This document shows positions 880 to 62,770 of a stretch of DNA of 64,000 nucleotides, piece after piece (position 1 is the first letter of the stretch; each line of letters begins with the position of its first letter). Under the pieces are notes generated by a model. That model was given only the letters and a program-made list of their open reading frames with translations, ran no database searches and had not been told where the DNA came from. Position numbers and translations under genes: made by a program. Source of the stretch: Lepas anatifera. Its lineage: Eukaryota; Arthropoda; Thecostraca; Lepadidae. Where the stretch lies: positions 992,001 through 1,056,000 of the forward strand of contig JAOTON010001814.1 of the NCBI GenBank assembly GCA_034440635.1, written 5' to 3'.

Positions 880-3030
880 TTATTCACGTTGTGAAAACGG
901 CTAATATCACCGCGAGCCATGAAGATCAGCCACAAAAATACGTATCTGATTCTTTGACAGTCCCTCACTGCCTTGAATTGACGAAATTGGTCGGGAAGAT
1001 GTCTTGCGCATCATAAATAAACTTGACTGTTCCAAGGCAAGTGGGCCAGACAACCTTCCAGTAAAAATTTTGAAAATGACAGGGGCATTAATAGCAGAGC
1101 CATAAGCAAAATTTTTTAACAAGTCTCATCAACCTCGGAAAATTTCCTAAGCCATGGAAACTTGCGACCGTCAAACCAATTTTCAAAGGTAAGGGCTCTC
1201 CCTCTGAGGTTAAGAATTATAGACCGATTAGCCTTCTTCCTTGCGTGTCGAAAATGTTCGAAAAACTTGTGTTCTCACGCATATATCAACATATAATGCT
1301 GCATTCTCTTCTAACACCAAAGCAGAGTGGCTATCGCCCAGGACATAACACACAGATTCAAATCACCTACCTGGTTGACAAACTTTACAAGTCACTAAAT
1401 GAAGGTGCAGATTTCACTGTAGTATACCCAGACATCTCGAGATATTTTGAGAAAATCTGGCATGATGGTTTATTAGCTAAATGTAGCATTGAATTTGGGA
1501 TAGACGGGACACTTTTGCAGTGGCTCAAGTGGTACTTGAGTGGAAGAACCCAAATCGTGCAGATAGGTGAAAGTAGTTCATCACCCAAGGCATTGAAGGC
1601 AGGTGTTCCTCAGGGGTCAGTCCTAGGGCCCCTTTTGGAAGTCATGTACTTGAATGGTCTAATTGGCCAGACAGAAAGTGATATTATGTTCTTTGCTGAT
1701 GACAGCTCCCTTCATGCCAGCCACACTCCACATAATGTTACTGAAGTGCAGGGTAAGCTTCAAAAAGACCTAGACTCAATTTTGGCTTATGACCATAAGT
1801 GGGTTATCACCTTCAATGCATCTAAGACCACACAACAAACGTGTTCTCACAAAAGCAGAGTAAGCGCACCTTTGCTCAATTTCAACAGCATTCAAATCCC
1901 CCAAAAAACAATCACATAAACACCTAGGACTGACACTTTCAACTGATCTGAGGTTCAAGTCGCATGTCAGCGAAGTTCTCCTGAAATTCAACAAAGCGCT
2001 AAGCCCCCTGTATCCTATAGCAGACTTACTCCCCAGACAAACACTATTAAGTATCTACAAAACTTATGTACAGCCATATCTAGACTACTGTGACACAGTA
2101 TATGACGGTCATCTGACAGAGAACGACAAGGGTCGTCTTGAAAAAGCCCAGACCAGAGCTGCCAGATTAATAACAGGAGTGCCGCGAAGGACGTCGAGAA
2201 CAAAACTGCTAGAAGAGCTTGGGTGGTATACACTGGAAAAACGACGGGAGACAAATGGCATTCTTCTCTTCCACCGTATTATGTTTGATGACAGAGTGCC
2301 CCAGTATATTAAAGACTTAATACCGAATCCCAGACATCTTGATACTTCCACAGTCCTTAGAAATACGCTTAACAACTATCTTTCATATCCAGAATCCAGC
2401 ACTGTACTCTTTTGTTCCCCGAGTCACAAGCGTGTGGAATAGTCTTCCGCAAAAGCTGCGGCAAACAAACAACATTTTACACTTCAAAAAAACAGATATT
2501 AACAACTCGCGTCCCTGTAACTCCGAAATCTTATTTTTCCTTTGGTACGAGACTGGGCAACAGACTCCACACACAGATTAGGCTTGAATCGTCGACACTG
2601 AATGGTCAAAGACATGCCCTTGGCAGGCCTGACTCCCCAGCCTGTGACTGTTGTCATCCAAGAGAGGACATTAAACACTTGTTCCTAGCTTGCCCTCATT
2701 ACGACGGGCTCAGAGCTGAGCTATTTCTCGAACTCTCCGGTATTCTCCACATAAATTTCAATGACCTGCCTATTACCACACAGATCAGCACCATAGTTCT
2801 CGGACCTGCAGACAAATTTGCAAGATCACCGCAACAGTTGTACAAAAGTTCCTAGCAAAAACCAACAGACTTTAGATTCGTTCCAATTCATGGTAGGGCA
2901 AAAATCATCAAAATCCTAGCTGCCTCCAGATTCACTCGGGGAAGCAACAATACCAGGAAGGATTTACTGAGGGTGGAGTTGGCGAGGGAGCGTGGCGCCG
3001 TGGCTAGACGGGAGATATAGATGATATAAT
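880..3030 (+). pseudogene. Broken non-LTR retrotransposon (CR1/Jockey-like LINE), reverse transcriptase and C-terminal part
   Basis: The ORF2-type polyprotein of a LINE copies element RNA into DNA at the nicked target. Here RT homology starts near 985 with the KASGPDNLPVK-type block and an NYRPISLLPC block near 1210. A 224-residue open frame at 1245-1919 holds the palm motifs: YPDIS (retained Asp, about residue 63), AGVPQGSVLGPL (119-130) and FADD (150-153). Beyond a stop, the thumb/connection region continues in other frames to about 2500. A C-terminal segment at 2520-2855 has a Cys/His cluster (ACDCC...H...C..H) of the kind found at the end of many CR1/Jockey-group ORF2 proteins. The apurinic endonuclease domain is missing, so the copy is 5'-truncated, as is usual for LINEs. 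Several frameshifts and stops make it dead. Clade assignment is uncertain. Confidence 0.85.
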
Positions 3031-37967: not shown

Positions 37968-38035
<68 letters not shown>

Positions 38036-39512
38036 CTTCTTCTAGTGCCGGCATGTCTCTAGCACCCCTATTATAATACTTCGCTTGTTTTTCTTTGCGT
38101 TCACTGAGGTACCTGGCGATATTACGAGGCACTTCAGGTCTGAGGAGTCGGTCAGAAGTAGGCAGTCTTGTCTTTGTGCGACGTCCTAATAGACACTGTG
38201 CCGGAGAGCTACCTATCCCCTCAGTCGGTGTATTTCTGTAGTCAAGGAGTGCCAGATAGACGTCGTGGCCGCCTGCCTGGGCCTTAAGCATCAAATTCTT
38301 GATGATTTTCACAGCACTTTCTGCTTTGCCATTCGATTGAGCGTAATGAGGTGAGCTGGTGATGTGTTCGAATTCGTACAGCTTCGCAAATCGGTAGAAC
38401 TCAGCCGAACAGAACGGAGGACCATTATCTGTCAGCATTTTATCCACCAGCCCGTGTCTTGCCATTTGTGCTTTCAGACAACGTATCACTTCACCCGACT
38501 GCTTGTTTGTCAGGCGATCACATTCAATGAAGTCGGAGTATGTGTCTACTGTCACCAGGTATGAGAGGCCTTGAAACTCCATGATATCACAGGCTATGAT
38601 CTGCCATGGTCGCTGGGGAATTTCACGGTACTTCAGTGTTTCCTTTTGCTGCCGCCTGCCATATTCGAGACATATCTTGCAGTTTTTTATTTCGTTTTCT
38701 AGTTCCTGTGTCATTCCCGGCCAGAAAACCACCTCCCGGGCTCGTCTGAGACAGCCCTGCAGTCCGATGTGCGAGGCATGTACTCGCTGTTTTATCCTGT
38801 TTCTCGCGCCTCTTGGTATCAGGATTCTTTCTTCTTTGAAAATCATTCCTTCTCTCACAGAGAGGTGATCTTTGAACGGATGGTATGACTTCAGATTGTC
38901 CGGAATCAGATGCTTTCTATCTGGCCAGCCATTCTTAATCACGCTTTGCAGTTCTTGCATGGTCTTGTCCTGTGCTGTTGCCTCTTTAATTATTTGTATG
39001 GTGTTCTTCGATACTGGAAGCTGGTCCAAAACCTGTATGTTTCTTACTTCTATTTCATCTGATGACGCGTCTTCTTCCATGCAGTACACGTGTCCTTCTG
39101 GCTTTCTTTGTTCGGTATCTTCTTCATGAGCACGGCTAAGAGTATCAGCCAGATACATTTCTTGGCCTCTCTTGTAAATGGCTTCGAAATCATGCTTCTG
39201 CAGACTCATCATCATCCTCTGGAGTCTTTTGGGTGCGCTTATCAGTGGTTTTCTTAGAATAACTTCTAATGGTTTGTGGTCTGTTTCGACTGTTACCTTC
39301 CTGCCGAGCGTATACCTTTCAAATTTATTGAGCCCGTATACAATTGCCAACATCTCTTTTTCGATTTTTGCGTAGTTTTTTTCGCTCTCTGTGAGTGCTC
39401 GCGAAGCGTATGCAACTGGTTGATCATTTGGCATTAGACAGGCGCCCAGGCCGTGGCAGGATGAGTCTACCTGAACGACGACATCAGTGTTAACATCGTA
39501 GAATCTCAGCAC
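37968..39512 (-). pseudogene. pol: gypsy pol: RNase H and integrase
   Basis: A 514-residue open frame. RNase H occupies about residues 1-125: QVDSSCHG (14-21), EKEMLAIVYG (51-60), TDHKPL (77-82), LADTLSRA (121-128). Integrase follows. Its zinc module has H245, H248, C278 and C281. The catalytic core has D309 (ACDIMEF), D362 (TDNGPPF) and E398 (NGKAES), with the usual 35-residue D-to-E spacing, so the catalytic triad is intact. The frame starts after a one-base shift relative to the RT frame. The methionine at 39512 is not a natural start. It ends in the TA-encoded Tyr-Ile tail and a stop. Confidence 0.9.
37969..38030. repeat. (TA)n microsatellite inside integrase
   Basis: About 62 bp of pure TA between the integrase core and its C-terminal module. 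On the minus strand it encodes Tyr-Ile repeats and then TAG. Confidence 0.95.
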
Positions 39513-41094
39513 TGGGCCAGAACTTCTTAATTATCATTTTTATTTCTGACGGTGCTTTTCCGTGAACACCTTCTTCGTATAAAAACACGTTTCCTTTTTT
39601 CAGGAGTTCTCTGAGAGGAGCACTGACCTCTGTCAGTTTTGGTGCGAATCTCTGTAGGTAGTTGACCAGGCCCATAATTCGCTGAACCGACTTCTGATCC
39701 GTAGGGGCTGGCATATTTTCTACTGCCTTGACTTTGTCCGGATCGGCTCTTAATCCTTTCTCGCTAAATAAATGTCCCATGTACTTGACCTCCGTTTGTC
39801 TTAGCTTCATTTTTTCATAGTTGAGCTTCAGTCCTACCTGCCGACACCTGTTCAGAAACTCAGTCAGCTTCCTGTCGTGGTCCTTGACAGCCACATCATG
39901 TGTCTCGCCGACACCGAAAATCAGCATGTCGTCAGCTATTGCTCGGACACCATCCAGACCTTCAATGGCCAAGTTGAGTCTCCTCTGGAACTCCTCTGAT
40001 GCCAGTCGTAGCCCAAACGGCATCCGAAGCCATCGATATCTCTCCCACGGACTTGAAAATGTCGTCAAGTAACTACTTTCTTCGTCCATTTGGACATGCC
40101 AGTAACCACTTTTGGCATCACATACGGTAAATACCTTAGCCTTCGCTAACTCTGGTATCAAATCTTCTATAGTTGGCAGAGCGTAATGGTTTCTTTTTAT
40201 TGCACGGTTCAAAGGTTGTGGATCGATGCAAATTCTTATCCCCTTCGTAGGTTTCTTCACAGTAACCATTCCTGATATCCACTCAGTTGGTTCCGATACC
40301 GGAGCGATAATTCCTTCTTGCTCGAGGCGCTCCAGTTCGGTCTTAACTTCTTCTTTCATTGCTTCTGGGATCGAGCGGGGAGCCGTTTTAACGGGCTCAG
40401 CATTTGCATCAAGCGTTATGTGTAGTACGCCCGGTAGCTTGCCTACTCCACTTAACACGTCGGAGTATCGACGCCGTAGTCCCTCAGCCGATCTGTTGGC
40501 CGCAGTATCGCAGTTTCCTGCTATCTCTGGCACTTCTTTTTCCCCGGGGCTTGAGACGCACGCGATGCTTTCAGTCTTGACTTCAATCAGTTCCATATCC
40601 TGGAGAGTCTTCAGACCTATGAGAGGACTGAAGTCTTCACGCACAACTGGGAATTCGATTTTGTAGCATGCACAAGTCTTTGGATTCATTACATCAACAT
40701 GTGCTTTTCCCAAAACTTTGGTTTTGGACTTGTTAAACATCACCAGTGTGGTATTGCACGGGTTTAGTTTAGCTAGCCTTGGGTCATTGAACGCCTTCTT
40801 ATAAATGTGTTGTGGTACTATGTTCACCGTGGTACCCGTATCCAACTGAAAGCGCTGAAGAAAACTATTTCCAAGAAGCAGATGTGCGAACAGCTTTCGT
40901 GTGCTGGCGTCCTCTGCCACTGCACTCACTTCTCGTATTATACGGTTATCACTGTTTTGATTCATCTGCTCTGCTTCCACTCTCTCACCTTGTACAGGTT
41001 GTCCAGGGTCTACCATCCGAATTTCTGCATTTTGCGGCGAAATGATTTTTTTCGGCCGCATACCTGGCATGTAGCTCCCCATGCTGGGCAACAT
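39490..41094 (-). pseudogene. pol: gypsy pol: protease and reverse transcriptase
   Basis: A 534-residue frame. The aspartic protease active site is LDTGTT (residues 84-89) after the FLQRF strand. RT: GIIAPV (261-266), VCDAKSGYWHVQM (324-336), MPFGL (358-362), and the catalytic box IADDML (386-391), with both Asp residues present. The thumb follows (KYMGHLFSEKGL). The frame is lost near 39515-39535, just before RNase H, by what reads as one extra base. The apparent start at 41094 is probably not used. Entry from gag would require a -1 shift. Confidence 0.9.
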
Positions 41095-41819
41095 TCCTTC
41101 CTGAATTCATGCGATCGTCCGCAAAACTTGCAGTTTCGGTGATTGCCAACGGTTCTTCTTGTATCCATCCGATCTCGGCTATTAGAGGAACCGGTGCCTG
41201 CACTACGGTTGTCCTTGGGTCGATGCTCTTTGTAAATCTTGTGCACTTCATTGCTTGTCTGGTTTTCAAACGCCATAATTTGTTTACTCGTTGCCTCGTG
41301 GGCTTTGACCACTTGTATTGCTTCTGTTAGTGTCAAATCCTTTTCTTGTAGTAGTCTTTTCCTCACGGCAGCACTTGGAACTCCCAAAACAATTCTATCC
41401 CTTATGAGACTTTCCTCAAGGTTTGCGTAATTGCACGTTTTGGCGAACTTGCGAAGTTCAGCTACATAGCGGTCAATGGTTTCGCCGCTTTCTTGGTCTC
41501 TGATATTAAACTGATACCTTTCAAATGTTTCATTGGTTCTTCCGACACAGAACTCTTCAAACTTGTTGAGTACGACCATGATTTGCTTTTGGTCGTCTTC
41601 ATCTGGACATATTCCGTCTAAAACATTCAGAGCCTCCGGTCCCAGACAAGTGAGTAGGGTTGCAACCTGTATACTTTCTGGTCTTTCATTCAATCCAGTG
41701 GCTATGGAAAAATTATTCCACTGTCTTTTCCATGTTTTCCAATTTGTAGTCAGACACAGATTCAGTAAGTAAGAGGGGAGGGGAATGGGGAATCCGAACA
41801 TTCCTGTTCCCTGAGCCAT
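41010..41819 (-). CDS. gag: gypsy gag (capsid/nucleocapsid)
   Basis: About 269 residues from the methionine of MAQGTGMFGF. An upstream in-frame methionine at 41861 is less likely. The capsid-like part contains WKRQWNNFSIATGL and a DRYVAELRKFAKTC-type helix region. The nucleocapsid has a first CCHC-like knuckle (CKFCGRSHEFRKEC). The second begins CQVCGRKK, then changes frame at a run of seven A (about 41045-41053), and its remaining His and Cys (NHFAAKC) lie in another frame. So either the A run gained a base, or slippage there is part of expression. Gag forms the particle that packages element RNA. Confidence 0.85.
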   Translation of the reverse strand: MAQGTGMFGFPIPLPSYLLNLCLTTNWKTWKRQWNNFSIATGLNERPESIQVATLLTCLGPEALNVLDGICPDEDDQKQIMVVLNKFEEFCVGRTNETFERYQFNIRDQESGETIDRYVAELRKFAKTCNYANLEESLIRDRIVLGVPSAAVRKRLLQEKDLTLTEAIQVVKAHEATSKQIMAFENQTSNEVHKIYKEHRPKDNRSAGTGSSNSRDRMDTRRTVGNHRNCKFCGRSHEFRKECCPAWGATCQVCGRKKSFRRKMQKFGW

Positions 41820-41910
41820 TCTTTTTTGTCTTCTATTCACAATGATTAGTAAAAATAACAATCAAGAATGATATACGGAAGTAATGCTTTAATTGAGTGC
41901 AAGAATTACG

Positions 41911-44790: not shown

Positions 44791-45450
44791 CTCAATGTGA
44801 AAAGAAAGTACATTTTCCTCTCTAAAATGAACCAAAAACTCGAATCTGACACTAGGCCACTGGTAAAAGAAAGTTGTGACATGACCTTGACCGAGGGTCA
44901 CCTCCTAAATTTCCTGGTACAACTATATTTCAAAACTATTTTTTCTTGAAATGAACATTGCGCATCTCTCCTCTGCAAAATATACGTTTAAACACCATTC
45001 TCAATATCTGCTGAGGTTTTTAACCCGCACATTGGAGAGGGGTCCTGTAGTGAAGCCCCAAAGAAGGGGGGTCGTGAAGTGTCTCTCCCGAGATCCCCTG
45101 CAGTGAAGCCCCAAAGGAGGGGGTCGCAAAGTGTCTCTCCCGAGATCCCCTGCAGAGAAGCCCCAAAGGAGGGGGTCGTGAAGTGTCTCTCCCGAGATCC
45201 CCTGCAGTGAAGCCCCAAAGGAGGGGGTCGTGAAGTGTCTCCCCCGAGATCCCGCAAACCAGGAGTGTGAGAAAAACGTGGGTTTGGGAGTTTATGAGAG
45301 CTATGACGATCTACATCATAGCTAACTTTCACTGACCTAGTCAAATATTTTTCGAGATCATACCAGGTCATAAATTCAAACCTTGCTTCTGCTGGGCACC
45401 CATTGAGAAATGCCTTGATTATGCAGACAAAATTAGCGAATACACTGACT
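44790..45450 (+). repeat. Partial arm of the 58-62 kb transposon Y
   Basis: Aligns with about 58610-59095: an AAATGARCC...TCGAATCTGA phrase, the TGACCTTGACC segment, TTTTTAACCCGCAC (TTAACACGC in the other copies) and the AGTGTGAGAAAAACG region. It is interrupted by a 52-bp tandem repeat. Outer arm and gene are absent. Confidence 0.7.
45044..45258. repeat. Four copies of a 52-bp tandem repeat
   Basis: Unit begins GAAGCCCCAAAGGAGGGGGT and contains GTGTCTCTCCCGAGATCCC. Starts lie at 45052, 45105, 45157 and 45209. Expansion of part of the arm's G-rich block. It causes a 181-residue minus-strand ORF that I do not regard as a gene. Confidence 0.9.
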
Positions 45451-45559: not shown

Positions 45560-46145
45560 TTATTGGACCGTTCCACTGCCCGGAGGGATAACCAGAAGAA
45601 ATTGTTCCTATAATAGATATTCCATCCATTAGTACGTATAAAATAAGCAAGAAAAAATGGAAAAATTTGCTGTTACGGTAAAACTGCCACGCCCTGAATT
45701 CGAAGCGGCATAACCCGTGGCACGTTCCAGGACAAATTGACCAGGCACCGCCTGGATTTTACATACCATAGTCTCAGATTTCGTTCGAACTTCGTACACA
45801 GAGTTATCATTGGTGTAGAATTAAGATTTCAGAATACTTCATTTCTAAAAATACGGGTTTTGGAGTTACAGCCTGCTGAAAATAGGGAGAATCCATGTTT
45901 TTGGAAAAACATGATGGAATACAATCATCATTATTTTCAATGAAGTCCTTCGTTATTGATGTTCATTAAAATATGATAGTATTGAACATTCTATTATTCA
46001 ATTTCAGAATTTAGTTTTCAAAAATAATGATTTAAAAGTTATTCGAAATTTGCATTGAATTTTTAATCAATTTTTTTTGTAAGTGTGGCCAGAGATTCAT
46101 CTTAAAATTATCTACACAAAATTTGTCTCTGTGCTTTTTCTTTCG
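45560..46145. repeat. Repeat PQ: unoccupied copy of the target of transposon Y
   Basis: The left half (45560-45850) is the reverse complement of 62512-62770. The right half (45850-46145) is the reverse complement of about 58098-58381. Here the halves are contiguous across TTCTAAAAATACGGG. In the 58-62 kb locus they are separated by 4.1 kb. Shared phrases include GGAGGGATAACCAGAAGAAA, GTACGTATAAAATAAGCAAG and AAGATGAATC (as its complement). PQ is itself a dispersed repeat of unknown class. Confidence 0.85.
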
Positions 46146-48719: not shown

Positions 48720-49381
48720 CACTGTAGACCGAGTCGTGAGGTCACAACGTCATATAATCAGGTTAAATGTCAAGGTCAACCCACGTGAAGGTCAAGGTCA
48801 AGGTCAATTGTCACAGGTCAAGGTCGTTTATCTCAGTATTCCGGTCAGATGGCATTATTCAATATGCCGTATGTTATGCTATGACTTCATAGTTAAGGCT
48901 ACTCAAGGTCAAAGTAAAGGTTAAAGGTCAAAGGCAAAGTCAAATGTCTTTTTCAAGGTCAAACCTTCACTTCCCGCCTTAAGGCTGCTGTAGTGCAAGT
49001 TATATTGTAGATTTTTGGGAATAGGTCATATTGTTATGACACATGACACCTGGACCTCAAAATTTCAGAGCACATTGTGTGGGACTCTCTCTATAACTGC
49101 CGTCCGCTTTTGTTGTATTCCGGCTTTTTATGCATAACCACGGCATTTCCCAATACGTCTCTAGCGCGGCTCAGATTTGATCTTTATGACCTCGTTTGAC
49201 CTTAAAGATATTGACCTGGGTCTATGAAACTTTACCATAAGGTACATCGCCATCACCTCCACACAACCCCCAACGGGCGTTTTGCTAACCCTCTTGATTT
49301 CCGATATCTCAGGGGAGGGGGCACTTTAGGACCCCTTCCACTGCGCGTTGACGTCAGACCCCTCTCCACTGCGCGTGTTAA
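48720..49381. mobile_element. TTAA-family C element end, copy C1
   Basis: The right end CACTGCGCGTGTTAAC with two CACTGCGCGTTGACG-type repeats, then inward CCCTCTTGATTTCCGATATC, matches (inverted) the arm segment of element Y beginning at 58838. The inner part is a dense run of AGGTCA-type hexamers (48770-48960). The opposite end is not found. Confidence 0.55.
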
Positions 49382-49639
49382 CAACACACTTGACAAAAAT
49401 ACAAGAATTTACCCGTGAGTACCCATATATCCTAGCCAACATTCTTACGAATACATAGGGCGTCAGAGATCACTTCAGGACAGCAAAATGCAAAAAAGGG
49501 GCCAATGTGCGCGTAGATCGCTGGAAGTTCCACTTGTTTCAGCAGGGTTCAGGCTGTCAGCTCCATCCTTTCAACTCAACTTCTGCTCTACTAAACTCAA
49601 CAGAATTAGTACACATGATGCATGGCCAATTGATAGGAC
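49382..49639. other. No gene recognised
   Basis: Short spacer between C1 and A4 with no repeat end or ORF of note. Confidence 0.25.
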
Positions 49640-51372: not shown

Positions 51373-51554
51373 GGATTTGTCGGGTAAATTTCGGATATGC
51401 ATCTAATTGGATCTGCGTTTTCTTGGCCATGACGTACACTACTGTTCACAGCCACCGGCGGGCCTCGTCGTCCTTCTCCGGAGACCACAGGCCAGACGCA
51501 CGCCGACCGACTAATGAGGGCGCCGCAGTCACCGATCGTCGCTGTCGACGGTCA

Positions 51555-52985
51555 GGGGCGCGCACAGGGAAGATGCTGTCGACGGTCAGGGGTGCATGCA
51601 GGGAAGATTCTGCCGACGGTCAGGGGTGCATACAGGGAAGATGCTGTCGACGGTCAGGGGTGCACACGGGGAAGATGCTGTCGACGGTCAGGGTCAGATA
51701 CAAGAGTGAATATGCTGCTGATAGTCAGGGGCGGATACAGGAGTGAATATGCTGCTGATAGTCAGGGGCGGACACAGGAGTGAATATGCTGCTGACAGTC
51801 AGGGACGGATACAGGAGTGAATATGCTGCTGATAGTCAGGGACGGATACAGGAGTGAATATGCTGCTGATAGTCAGGGGCGGATACAGGAGTGAATATGC
51901 TGCTGACAGTCAGGGACGGATACAGGAGTGAATATGCTGCTGACGGTCAGGGTCACGTACAGGGAAGATGCTTATTCACTCCTGTTTCCGCCTCTGCCCG
52001 TCGACAGCATATTTACTCTTGTACCTGACCCTGACCGCCGACAGCATATTCACTCCTCTTTCCGCTGATGGTCAGGGTCAGATACAGGGAAGATGCTGCT
52101 GATGGTCAGGGTCAGATACAGGGAAGATGCTGCTGATGGTCAGGGTCAGATACAGGGAGGATGCTGCTGACGGGCAGGGTCAGATACAAGGAAGATGCTG
52201 CTGACGGTCAGGGTCAGATACAGGAAAGATGCTGCTGATGGTCAGGGTCAGATACAGGGAAGATGCTGCTGATGGTCAGGGTCAGATACAGGGAAGATGC
52301 TGCTGATGGTCAGGGTCAGATACAGGGAAGATGCTGCTGACGGGCAGGGTCAGATACAAGGAAGATGCTGCTGACGGTCAGGGTCAGATACAGGGAAGAT
52401 GCTGCTGATGGTCAGGGTCAGATACAGGGAAGATGCTGCTGATGGTCAGGGTCAGATACAGGGAAGATGCTGCTGATGGCCAGGGTCAGATACAGGGAAG
52501 ATGCTGCTGATGGTCAGGGTCAGATACAGGGAAGATGCTGCTGATGGTCAGGGTCAGATACAAGGAAGATGCTGCTGACGGTCAGGGTCAGATACAGGAG
52601 AAGATGCTGCTGACTGTCAGGGTCAGATACAGGGAAGATGCTGCTGATGGTCAGGGTCAGATACAGGGAAGATGCTGCTGATGGTCAGGGTCAGATACCA
52701 GGAAGATGCTGCTGACGGTCAGGGTCAGATACAGGGAAGATGCTGCTGATGGTCAGGGTGAGATACAAGGAAGATGCTGCTGACGGTCAGGGTCAGATAC
52801 AGGGAAGATGCTGCTGATGGTCAGGGTCAGATACAGGGAAGATGTTGCTGATGGTCAGGGTCAGATACAAGGAAGATGCTGCTGACGGTCAGGGTCAGAT
52901 ACAGGGAAGATGTTGCTGATGGTCAGGGTCAGATACAGGGAAGATGCTGCTGATGGTCAGGGTCAGATACAGCGAAGATGCTGTC
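51555..52985. repeat. 1.4-kb minisatellite, 34/37-bp units, with an inverted island
   Basis: About 40 units. Segment 1 (51555-51690): 34-bp units with CTGTCGACGGTCAGGGGTGC. Segment 2 (51690-51970): 37-bp units with TGATAGTCAGGGGCGGATAC and AGGAGTGAATATG. Segment 3 (51971-52064): two to three 37-bp units in inverted orientation. Segment 4 (52065-52985): 34-bp units with GATGGTCAGGGTCAGATACA and GGGAAGATGCTGCT. Neither 34 nor 37 is a multiple of three, so coding is unlikely. Sharp subfamily blocks show local amplification. Confidence 0.95.
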
Positions 52986-58097: not shown

Positions 58098-58381
58098 TGC
58101 AAAAGCGCAGAGAAACATTTTTGTAGATAAGTTTAAGATGAATCTTTGGCCACACGTACAAAAATTGTTTTAAAAATTGAAAGCAAATTTCCAAAAACTT
58201 TTAGATCATTATTTTTAAAAAAGCAAATACTGAAAACTGGATTGTTAAGGAACTATCACATTTCAAATGATCATCAATAACGAAGGACTACATAGAACAT
58301 AATGATTGTACCCCATCATGTTTTGCCAAAAACAAGGATTTTCCCGACTTTCAGCAGGCTGTAACCCCAAAACCCGTATTT
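58098..58381. repeat. Repeat PQ, right half, left of transposon Y
   Basis: Reverse complement of 45850-46145, ending exactly where Y begins (CCCGTATTT, then GGGCAATT). Confidence 0.85.
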
Positions 58382-59105
58382 GGGCAATTTCAGCATCAAT
58401 CGACCAGGCAAACAGCAAATATACACAGTACCTCTTCGATTTTCTTCAAAATAATTATATAGGGTTCTCATGGGCCCTAAAGACGAATCTGAAAGTTTTA
58501 GCTCGATCAGAGTCAAACTTAAGTTATTGCCTCAGGCATTTTTTGGAAATCTGCTTACAGTGCAATTTTTTAGGTGACCATAAAACCCACAGAGACTAAT
58601 GAACTGTACATTAAAGATGCATTTTCCTGTCTGAAATGAGCCGAAGAATTCGAATCTGAAGTTTGTTTGACCCTAGGTCACTTATGAAAAAAGTTGTGAT
58701 TTGACCTTGACCTAAGGTCACATTCAAAATTTGCTGGTACACCTTTTGTTCAAAATGGAGCATTCCAAATTAAAGATTGAACTTTCTCCTTCCATAAAAA
58801 TAGGTTAAAATATCCGTTTTTATATCTACTAGTGTTTTTAACACGCTTAGTGGAGGGTAGCCTGGCGCTAACACGTAATGAAGGGGTCCCGAAATGCCTC
58901 CCCTGAGATTTCACCAATTAAGAGGGTTAGGAAAACGAGTGTTGCGGGTTTTGTGAGGGCTGTAGAATATGTTTTTTTTGCTAGATTTTATGAACTTATA
59001 CCAGTATCCTCAACGTCAAATGAGGTCATAGAGGTCAAATGTAGCCCGTACCTGACGCTTAGCGAAATGCCGTGATTGTGCGAAACAAAGTCGCGAATAC
59101 ACTTT
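58382..59105 (+). repeat. Left inverted arm of Y
   Basis: Shares with the right arm GGGTTCTCATGGGCC, TTGCCTCAGGCATTTTTTG, AATCTGCTTACAGTGCA, TTTTTAACACGC (58835-58846), CGAAATGCCTCCCCTGAGAT and AAGTCGCGAA near its inner end. Contains several TGACCTTGACC-type motifs. Confidence 0.85.
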
Positions 59106-59531
59106 GAGCGGGCAAATTTCATAAAGAGAAGATATAAATTGTTCCCTGGAATATTTAGGTCGAGGTCAGTCAAGGTAATTGACCAATGACACCACAATGC
59201 GAGATATTTCCATAATGGATGCACATACGTTGAAGCTTGCAAAGAAGCAACCATTAGGCAATCAATGAGTTTGACCTTGACCCACAGTCTTTGGCATTTT
59301 ACCTGGAACTTAGCATTCAGTAACCTCAGCTGTAACATCAAAATATCATACACGTATTGCCATGGAACGTCATCTGACCGTAAGTTCTGGAATCAACAAT
59401 TGTGATAATGTTTATATGACCTTGGTCTGTGACCTATGATCTAGTGAAGTGATCTTAACATACAACCCTGATGATACTACGTTTTCATTGCAGAGCTAGC
59501 TCTGCAATGCATTTGAACTGGTGTGACCGCA

Positions 59532-59768
59532 CATGGGCGTCGGAAAAGGGGGGCCAGGGGGCCTGGCCCCTCCCCCCCACTTTTTGGTCCAAAATTTCCG
59601 TATCTCAGTCAAAATGGGAGAAAACCTGAAATTTGCATAAACAGCCGCTGCAGAAGGCAACAAGGAGCCCAAATTTGAACAGTTTTTGGTCCTATCGTGG
59701 AAAGGTTTTTGTCAGCATCAGGTTGGAGTTTGACTCCCCCCCCAACTTTTTTCCGGTGGCGATGCTTA
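59532..59768. mobile_element. MULE-like MITE inside Y
   Basis: A 237-bp G/C-tract-rich element with ends CATGGGCGTCGGAAAAGG and CTTTTTTCCGGTGGCGATG. Flanked by a perfect 10-bp duplication TGTGACCGCA (59522-59531 and 59769-59778). Duplications of 9-11 bp are typical of Mutator-like elements. Confidence 0.6.
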
Positions 59769-60363
59769 TGTGACCGCAGATTATGGCTATTTAGGAATAT
59801 ATGTCTGATTTTGTAAGCCTATAGGTCAGTCAGTGCATGAACATAGAGGACAGATTTTCCAAGCTATTTCCAAAATTAACTCGCTCATCGATGTCGTTTT
59901 TCTGCCATGAAGGGTTTCCGGCCACCTCGGGCAATTATGCTTAAGCGCTATCCGACTGCGTGTTAATGCTCATCACAGTGTTTTAAAGGATGACAATGAC
60001 TCGTCGCTGAGACTTCGACAGCATACTGGACAATGGACATGTAGTGGGACAAAATGGTGTTACAATAGGAACAGTGCTAGAAGTCTGGTGAAAGCCAAAT
60101 AAAGTAAATCGGTAAGTTTTTTTTTGCATCGGACCAAAGCAAACATTTCCCACTTGCGAGTTAGAACTATAGCAATGCTCTCTCTCCTTGACGATATCTT
60201 TGCGCGATTTTACTCTCCTTGAAGTTAAAGGAAGCAAGCATTTGTCAGCACGTGCAAAACATATATATGTATGTACATACAGTACATCAGACGCCGGTTT
60301 GCAGCAATGCACCGAAATACGGGAGCTGGTGCCTCCATGAGCTGTCTTTGTGCTGAGCTGACC
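59769..60363. other. Interior of Y without a recognised gene
   Basis: Ordinary composition. GCGTGTTAA at 59958-59966 echoes family A-C ends but may be coincidental. No ORF of note apart from a 109-residue minus-strand frame without motifs. Confidence 0.3.
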
Positions 60364-61700
60364 TTACGCTGTCGCATTAGGTACCTCTGTTCCGTCCAGT
60401 GGCGGATCCAGGGAGAAACAAAAACAATATGCCCCCCCGAAATGGAAAACTAGGGGCAAAACTATGTTTCCCCCTCCTCCAAGCGGTCGACCTCCTTTAT
60501 GCCCCGACTCCTTTTTAATTTATAAGCAGGATGTCGGTGCTTCAACTCTCAACATCCAACAAAACCAGTTAAGTTCAGTGTAAATATTGGATCTTGGATA
60601 GAAAGAAGTATCTTGAGCCCATACTTTTTCACCCCATGACGTTTTTTGCCTTTTGGTTCAAATATCCTAAATCCTACTCTCAAGTCATATTATTGTAGCA
60701 CAATTTTTCACTGCGTGACGTTTTTTCTCTTTTTTTCCTTTTCGACTTTGGTTTGCTCCTCCCAAACCGACCGGCTAGATCTGCCACTGGTTCCGTCGAT
60801 GTCTTCAGAGAGCTCTCGCACCTGCATGATGTTCAGGTTTATGGGTGTGAAACGATGAAACCGTTGGGTGCCCTTGGTCTTCAACGCCGAGCTGTACCGC
60901 TGTATCAGTCGTTTTGACATTTCAAAGACCTCTCTACTGACAAACTCGAAATTGATTGTGGTGTCGAAGTATTGCGTCAGAAAAGAGAACGTCAATAAAG
61001 GATCCAGGATCTGATCCTTTTCTTCTCTCCTTAAGCTTACCTGGCCTGTTCTTCTTCGAACTTTGCCTCCAACTCCGTCACAGGCGTTCTTCCCGTGGCT
61101 GGTAGCAAAGAAGTGCCATTCACATGGTATTTGAAAGTCTATCTGGATGATAGCAAGCATTGATAAAGTGAAAATTGTTTTTGTATTGGCCACCGCACCC
61201 GTCTGATACGTAATGTATTTTCTTCAAACTTGGCATGTGGGTGCGTAGCTAAGGTACGAGTTAGTGCTGCAAGGTATGAACCATGACGTTAGAGTGCTTT
61301 AAGTCGTCACTTAAAAAAAACTACTGCACCGGACTCCATCCTCAGTCCAGTATGGAACAAAAGGGTGTGCAGTCACCTGCTTTGCATACCAGTGAGCAGC
61401 ATTTTGCGCAGTACATGTATAATTTTCTGATAAGTCATCGATGACTACGGCTTTCCCCTTTGGTGCCTTTTCCTTCCAGTTTGCTATATAATGATCTTGA
61501 GCCTTAGAGATGTAGTGGTGACTGGTTAGGTTACATACCTTCTCACTCAGGGAATCAACAAATCGCTCTATATTATCCACGCAATCCGAAAGCGTTGATT
61601 CTCTCTCTGATTTTGACCATTCTTTAAACGTAATATCTTCAGAAGCCATTTGCACGGAGTCAAAAGAGTATAAATACTCCCTAACCTCCTCCTCTCCAGA
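60364..61700 (-). pseudogene. Broken gene of transposon Y: multicopy uncharacterised protein, candidate transposase
   Basis: The minus strand holds two open pieces (61311-61655 and 60708-61193) joined by a stretch in another frame. In order they show VVIDDLSENY (about 61430), an HWYAKQVTAHP block, FLSDDLKHS (about 61300), VSDGCGGQYKNN (about 61175-61210) and EWHFFATSHGKNACDG (about 61090-61140). I recognise this set from memory as a family of uncharacterised, highly multiplied proteins in many invertebrates. The spaced Asp motifs are suggestive of an RNase H-like fold, which is inference. A run of eight T (about 61310-61318) marks the first frameshift, and a second lies near 61150. A hAT-like MITE interrupts the 3' end. 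Across that site the frame would run about eight codons to a stop at 60364-60366. Position between the arms makes it the likely mobilising protein, although some families of this kind may be passengers. Confidence 0.65.
60397..60789. mobile_element. hAT-like MITE M7 with perfect 8-bp target duplication
   Basis: A 393-bp element with ends CAGTGGCGGATCCAGG and CGGCTAGATCTGCCACTG. GTTCCGTC flanks both sides (60389-60396 and 60790-60797). It interrupts the Y pseudogene and is the best-defined member of the GGCGGATCCAG family. Confidence 0.85.
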
Positions 61701-61787
61701 GCTCCGTTGACGTGAGGTTATCCACTGTCACCGTACTGTTATATGTTTCAATACCACTGTTTCAATACATCACTATTATATGTTTCA

Positions 61788-62507
61788 AACGTTTCGCGAC
61801 TTTTTCCGTATAATCACGGCACTTCGCTTAAGGTGTCCGGTATGACGTAAATTTGACATTTATGGCCTGATTTCACCTTAAAGATATAGATATAAGTTCA
61901 CACAATTGAGCTCAAATAAAACAGTTAACAGGCCCCACAAATCCCGGAACATGCCTTTTCCCAACCCTCTTAATTGGCGAGATCTCAGGGGAGGCATTTC
62001 GGGACCCCCTTCATTACGTGTTGACGCCAGAACGCCCTCCACTGTGCGTGTTAAAAACACAAGTAGATATAAAAAACGGATGTTCTAACCTATTTTATTG
62101 GACGGAAAAAGTTTAATCTTCAATTTAAGACATTCAATTTTGAAAAAAAAGTTGTACCAGCGAAATTGGGATATGACCTTAGGTCAAGGTCAAACCATAA
62201 ATTTTTCACAAGTGACCTAGGGCCAAACGGACTTCAGATTCGACTTTTTCGGCTCATTTTAAATAAGGAAATGTACCTTTAATGCATAATTCATTCATCA
62301 TCTTTTGAGGGTTTTGTGCTTACCCAAAAAATGCACTGTAAGCAGATTTTCAAAAAATGCCTGAGGCAATAATTTCTAAAGTTTTACTCCGATCGAGCTA
62401 AGACTCTCAGATTCGGCTTTGAGGCCCATGAGAACCCTATATGCCCATTTTAAAGTAAATCGAAAAGGTACCGTGTAGGCCTTGGTCAATTGGTGCTGGA
62501 ATTGCCC
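61788..62507 (-). repeat. Right inverted arm of Y
   Basis: Reverse-complement partner of 58382-59105. TTAACACGC lies 453 bp from the outer end, against 456 bp in the left arm, so the arms are collinear. Confidence 0.85.
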
Positions 62508-62511
62508 ATTT

Positions 62512-62770
62512 GTAGAAATGAAATATTCTGAAATATTAATTCTACACCACTGATAACTTTGTGTACGAAGTTGGAACGAAATCTGAGACTATGGTATGTA
62601 AAATCCAAGTGGTGCCTGGTCGATTTGTCCTGGAACATGCCACGGGTTATACCGCTTCGAATCCAGGGCGGGGCAGTTTTACCGTAACAATATTTTTTTC
62701 AATTTTCTTCTTGCTTATTTTATACGTACGATTGAAGTATCTATACTAAGGACAATTTCTTCTGGTTATC
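62512..62770. repeat. Repeat PQ, left half, right of transposon Y
   Basis: Reverse complement of 45560-45850. It starts immediately after the ATTT duplication and ends near GGTTATCCCTCCGCCC. Confidence 0.85.

Follow-up and report, generated by a model that had tools for sequence, protein, structure and literature searches.

The window analysed here is a stretch of 64,000 nucleotides from Lepas anatifera (assembly GCA_034440635.1, contig JAOTON010001814.1, positions 992,001 to 1,056,000, forward strand), in which a segment of 4,126 bp at 58382-62507 lies between inverted arms of ~720 bp and a duplicated ATTT target. What kind of mobile element is this discrete insertion, and how has it been moved? 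We think it likely that the segment is a non-autonomous cut-and-paste copy of the Sola type (most likely Sola2) that is moved in trans by 5.27-kb relatives. It looks like an ordinary but unusually well-documented DNA transposon of that known group rather than a new kind.

Ends, insertion site and genomic copies

An earlier note, made from the letters of the window, described collinear inverted arms, a flanking ATTT duplication, and outer flanks that are contiguous at 45560-46145, and concluded that the segment is a discrete insertion. These points are borne out. The arms (58382-59110 against the reverse complement of 61780-62507) align collinearly from end to end, with 595 identities, 114 mismatches and 39 gaps, that is, 83.9% identity in ungapped columns, and the score of 703 compares with 2.5 +/- 1.8 for 20 shuffles; BLAST gives 79.4% across 729 columns when gaps are counted. 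The ATTT duplication is exactly 4 bp on both sides. When the flanks 58098-58381 and 62512-62770 are joined and aligned with the reverse complement of 45560-46145, the alignment is unbroken across the junction, where ATTT occurs once (478 identities, 57 mismatches and 59 gaps, the last figure counting end gaps; 89.3% identity in ungapped columns). Because the site at 45.85 kb is only ~89% identical, we regard it as a paralogous copy of the host repeat and not as an allele.

The insertion is further supported by recurrence at other loci. The genome of the same assembly (1.04 Gb in 2,126 contigs) was searched with the outer 219 bp of the element, which gave 912 first-look candidates; the 40 that were scored, including the window copy, match at 92-100%, all from base 1. 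Note that the copy figures given here (40 scored of 912 and, below, 83 scored of 3,162) are lower bounds. All 20 further copies that were fetched begin at the same base, and the termini are GGGCA in each of them as well as in the window copy. Both ends were found within 6.7-6.8 kb in 15 of the 20, while five (L019, L020, L022, L023 and L026) show interruptions or rearrangements and lack an intact right end within the fetched stretch. The duplication is exactly 4 bp, never 5 or 6, in 18 of 18 cases (the window copy, 15 copies and two partner elements described below). With L010 and L011, which have common flanks, counted as one site, there are 17 independent target sites, in which A is first in 13, T is last in 13, and both hold in 10. 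Thus, in the copies seen, neither different ends nor missing duplications occurred, and the join at 45.8 kb did not prove to be a deletion, the outcomes that the earlier note had held out as counter-evidence.

The host repeat contains GTGGCAYGTTCCAGGACAAATYGACCAGGC, which resembles a terminus of the family, at 45717 (+) and 62643 (-). This motif has 6-7 mismatches to two family ends, and none was found at 8 or fewer mismatches in three shuffles; the homology of the host-repeat copies extends ~130 bp past it. Because of this terminus-like motif, the window element may have inserted into an old relative. In addition, the segments 44805-45095 and 49114-49388, which are ~70% identical to the element arms, lie in opposite orientation ~4 kb apart on either side of the empty-site repeat and probably represent an older relative.

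The defective interior and its intact partner

The earlier note also proposed a single interior gene. Transposase sequence is indeed present, but only as a broken remnant on the minus strand, from about 61702 to 60364. It contains two frame changes and two in-frame stops, its N-terminal part is missing, and a 393-bp hAT-like insert interrupts it (Table 1). Since the interior gene is a non-functional remnant, the window copy is a non-autonomous derivative. The 393-bp insert is bordered by an 8-bp duplication, GTTCCGTC, at 60389-60396 and 60790-60797, and from its ends and the length of this duplication we take it to be hAT-like. One or both of its end motifs occur at the same place in 16 of 16 family copies, and both occur in 13; neither was found in the two partner elements. 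A second insert, of 237 bp, is not present in the partner C491, of which the two aligned pieces overlap by 10 bp.

Table 1. Features of the element and of its empty site (positions in the window)
Feature	Position	Strand	Basis
Left target-site duplication, ATTT	58378..58381	.	direct reading and programmatic check
Left terminal inverted repeat, ~720 bp, starts GGGCAATT	58382..59110	+	alignment, BLAST, partner comparison
Nested 237-bp insert, flanked by TGTGACCGCA (59522-59531, 59769-59778)	59532..59768	.	alignment gap to C491
Final codons of transposase remnant (EVPNATA, stop), cut off by hAT-like insert	60364..60388	-	partner ends ...DGTEVPTATA
Nested 393-bp hAT-like miniature element (CAGTGGCGGATC...GATCTGCCACTG)	60397..60789	.	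sequence and partner comparison
C-terminal part of transposase remnant, with HGKNACDGVGG containing the third conserved Asp (upper end approximate)	60790..61136	-	sequence comparison
Middle part of transposase remnant, in another frame and with two in-frame stops; second conserved Asp (YVSDGCGGQYKN) (ends approximate)	61137..61320	-	frame 2 translation
Upstream part of transposase remnant; first conserved Asp (VVIDDLSENYTC) (ends approximate)	61320..61702	-	alignment limit to C491, comparison with P0240
Right terminal inverted repeat	61780..62507	-	alignment, BLAST, partner comparison
Right target-site duplication, ATTT	62508..62511	.	programmatic check
Empty site: uninterrupted paralogous copy of host repeat, single ATTT at 45849-45852	45560..46145	-	alignment

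Eight copies (L009-L016) are 98.9-99.8% identical to each other across ~4,080 bp, and their identity to the window copy is 96.6-96.9%. Because a defective unit recurs in near-identical copies, with end motifs of the hAT-like insert at the same place, the 4.1-kb family multiplied after losing its coding capacity, and is defective yet young. Some older copies retain longer frames (354 codons in L018). In L017, a long GA-rich repeat expansion within the transposase remnant produces an alternating Arg-Glu run within a frame of 399 codons.

The genome was also searched with the homologous protein P0003, and 58 of the 83 scored transposase matches are free of in-frame stops in the matched stretch; some of these 58 are partial. 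The loci C491 and C34 match the window copy at 89% identity in the transposase region and at about 85-86% in the arms. Each is 5,272 bp long, starts with GGGCAATTCCAGCACCAATCGACC and carries the matching complement at the opposite end, has arms of 580-581 bp at 92% identity, and holds an open frame of 595 codons; the target-site duplications are TAAT and AGTT. The protein of C491, P0240, has 521 residues from the chosen Met, with upstream Met codons as other possible starts. Nine more matches span query residues 1-507 or 2-507 in frames of 564 to 642 codons with no stop. Relative to C491, ~2 kb (C491 2475-4499) is missing from the window copy, where the join shows an overlap of 11 bp, and the two inserts are additional. 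The same genome also contains five other groups of related transposons (L029-L056), which are ~98-99.8% identical within groups; 24 of these 28 have no in-frame stop in the match, and their ends are GRGGCATTCCAC or GGTGCATTCCAC.

The transposase family and its classification

The transposase belongs to a large family, with 1,364 matches. Pfam gave no above-threshold match in P0001, P0002, the 63 members of A1, or P0240, NCBIfam gave no match in the three proteins scanned, and PDB gave no sequence match. Below threshold, nine Pfam families appeared at E <= 0.01, each in just one of the 63 A1 members. HTH_23 in P0062 (2.4e-5) reached 24.5 bits against a cut-off of 24.6, and DUF6495, far below its cut-off, was the one family recurring in two separately scanned proteins (E 0.0047 in P0001 and 0.057 in P0062); the remaining weak rows for the separately scanned proteins were taken as chance. 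AlphaFold2 models place three conserved aspartates within a predicted RNase H/integrase-like core, and the N-terminal part contains helical and CxCxxH/Cys-rich regions. The fold assignment does not rest on Foldseek, which found no PDB match at E <= 0.001; its two BFVD matches at that level have TM-scores of 0.07-0.21 and, being weak, were not used as support, and rows for IstA, TnsB, Argonaute and RNase H were set aside as reflecting a common fold and no closer kinship.

The named proteins among the listed matches are called hypothetical, unnamed, uncharacterized or Cc8L18.2-like; for the last of these names, which belongs to P0304, the literature search found no paper. The named organisms among them are animals, except for one bacterial metagenome-assembled genome (MAG), of Sedimenticola, the source given for P0161, which is presumably contamination. 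A viral or prokaryotic origin was rejected: the A1 pattern matched 13 viral and 132 prokaryotic stretches, none of which is a relative by tblastn. A C-terminal extension is found in 117 of 154 longer relatives, defined as proteins in which 380 or more residues precede the core motif, and is absent from the branch of the window's transposase. This branch is distinct in a tree built from the full set of 20 proteins whose tail has 95-110 residues, together with 50 chosen at random from the 117 with 180 or more, leaving out the rest of the 154.

The Sola superfamily was reportedly described by Bao et al. in 2009. We compared the family with published descriptions of Sola, rather than with Sola sequences, so that membership is judged by features and the element is best called Sola-like, most likely Sola2. 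Sola elements are described as having a DDD transposase, 4-bp duplications and arms of 11-1124 bp, and as being mostly 2-9 kb long (PMC10741241). Likewise, the duplication is exact in all 18 complete copies here, the models predict a DDD transposase with an RNase H fold, and the sizes fit (~720-bp arms in 4.1 kb for the window copy, 581 bp in 5.27 kb for the partner). As in Sola2, for which the targets in amoebae are AWWT (PMC3627910), A and T are favoured at the target edges. There are also differences: strict AWWT is found at only 2 of the 17 sites (ATTT and ATAT), the target core is not confined to A/T, and the amoeba elements have arms of 12-21 bp (PMC3627910), far shorter than those of the window copy. 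A 2015 survey lists Sola2 as animal-only (PMC4438587), amoebozoan Sola2 elements are reported (PMC3627910), and Sola2-derived miniature inverted-repeat transposable elements are reported from Cotesia (PMC7822920), with no sequence link made to the window family.

The strongest competitor, which we consider rather unlikely, is an undescribed superfamily with a DDD transposase, GRGGCATTCC-type ends and a 4-bp A..T target, whose resemblance to Sola would be confined to general features. The lack of above-threshold Pfam and of NCBIfam matches in the proteins scanned, the lack of a PDB sequence match, the uninformative names of the relatives and the few strict AWWT sites all favour it; on the other hand, those general traits of Sola that were open to testing (4-bp duplication, predicted DDD residues, and arm and element lengths) are all present, and the animal-only listing of Sola2 agrees with the named organisms, bar the one MAG. 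We also hold a fuller version to be unlikely. In it, the family would form a separate superfamily that occurs widely in animals and has escaped the domain databases, and the branch of the window's transposase would be a clade that lost a C-terminal extension of ~100 residues and that comprises, within one genome, several families having recent copies. The earlier note had suspected an under-described lineage. The large family, the lack of an above-threshold Pfam match and the distinct branch agree with this, and no paper describing the family by sequence was found in the literature searched, supplements aside; its features, however, already appear in published accounts of Sola. The lack of above-threshold Pfam matches among the members scanned may explain the names "uncharacterized" and "hypothetical" given to listed relatives, and a domain model for the family would aid annotation.

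Mobilisation, remaining alternatives and other features

If the element is a Sola-type copy moved in trans, its history may be reconstructed as follows. A relative of the 5.27-kb element would have lost ~2 kb that included the N-terminal portion of the transposase gene and acquired the two nested inserts, one of them the hAT-like miniature element. The 4.1-kb product, having retained both ends, would then have been multiplied in trans by the transposase of intact 5.27-kb relatives. In this picture, the enzyme would bind the long arms and use an RNase H-fold DDD active site to cleave at GGGCAATT...AATTGCCC; it would link the ends to the target through a 4-bp stagger, with A favoured at the first position and T at the last. 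In Ac/Ds-type pairs, internally deleted copies are mobilised in trans by an intact relative; the autonomous/non-autonomous arrangement is the same here, but the transposase superfamily is different. The element and its partner form a well-resolved pair of this kind. No biochemical study of this transposon group was found in the literature searched, and the transposase is testable because the genome has very similar intact copies of several such families.

That a different, more distant relative moves the 4.1-kb family seems very unlikely. The genome does hold several further families whose intact frames run to about 526-568 codons, with differing ends where seen (such as GRGGCATTCCACGACAAATCGAC), and the partner arms are only about 85-86% identical to those of the window copy; nevertheless, the terminal 22 bases, GGGCAATTCCAGCACCAATCGA, are the same in the partner and in the eight young copies, without a mismatch.

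Of the groups that the earlier note had named, Ginger fails on its termini and Kolobok on its target, whereas Sola fits the tested features except for the full Sola2 target. A Ginger, Kolobok or piggyBac element is therefore highly improbable, even though 4-bp duplications occur in Ginger1 and animal Ginger2 (PMC2836005) and in Kolobok and piggyBac (PMC9587614), the Ginger transposase also has an RNase H fold, and Kolobok ends are 5'-RR as in the window element. Ginger has TGTNR ends, CCGG/CCGT or RTATAY targets and a Gypsy-integrase-like protein (PMC2836005), while the ends here are GGGCA, no CCGG, CCGT or ACGG target occurs among the 17 independent sites, and no rve match was found by Pfam in P0001, P0002, the 63 A1 members or P0240. 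Kolobok and piggyBac are TTAA-specific (PMC9587614), and TTAA is found at 0 of the 17 sites. Finally, the idea that the look of an insertion arose from a deletion at 45.8 kb, or from two separate rearrangements, can draw on a single paralogous site, at 89% identity, having been examined, but is hardly credible, being refuted by the same ends and 4-bp duplications at unrelated loci genome-wide.

In the window as a whole, Rfam reported no family at threshold. Frames that we label, from reading, as putatively LTR-retrotransposon-like gag/pol lie at 37968-41861 (-), and others, likewise putative, resembling non-LTR retrotransposon reverse transcriptase lie at 1095-2855 (+). A 34-bp tandem repeat occupies 52064-52983 (27 copies, 94% matches), with a second 34-bp array at 51541-51693.
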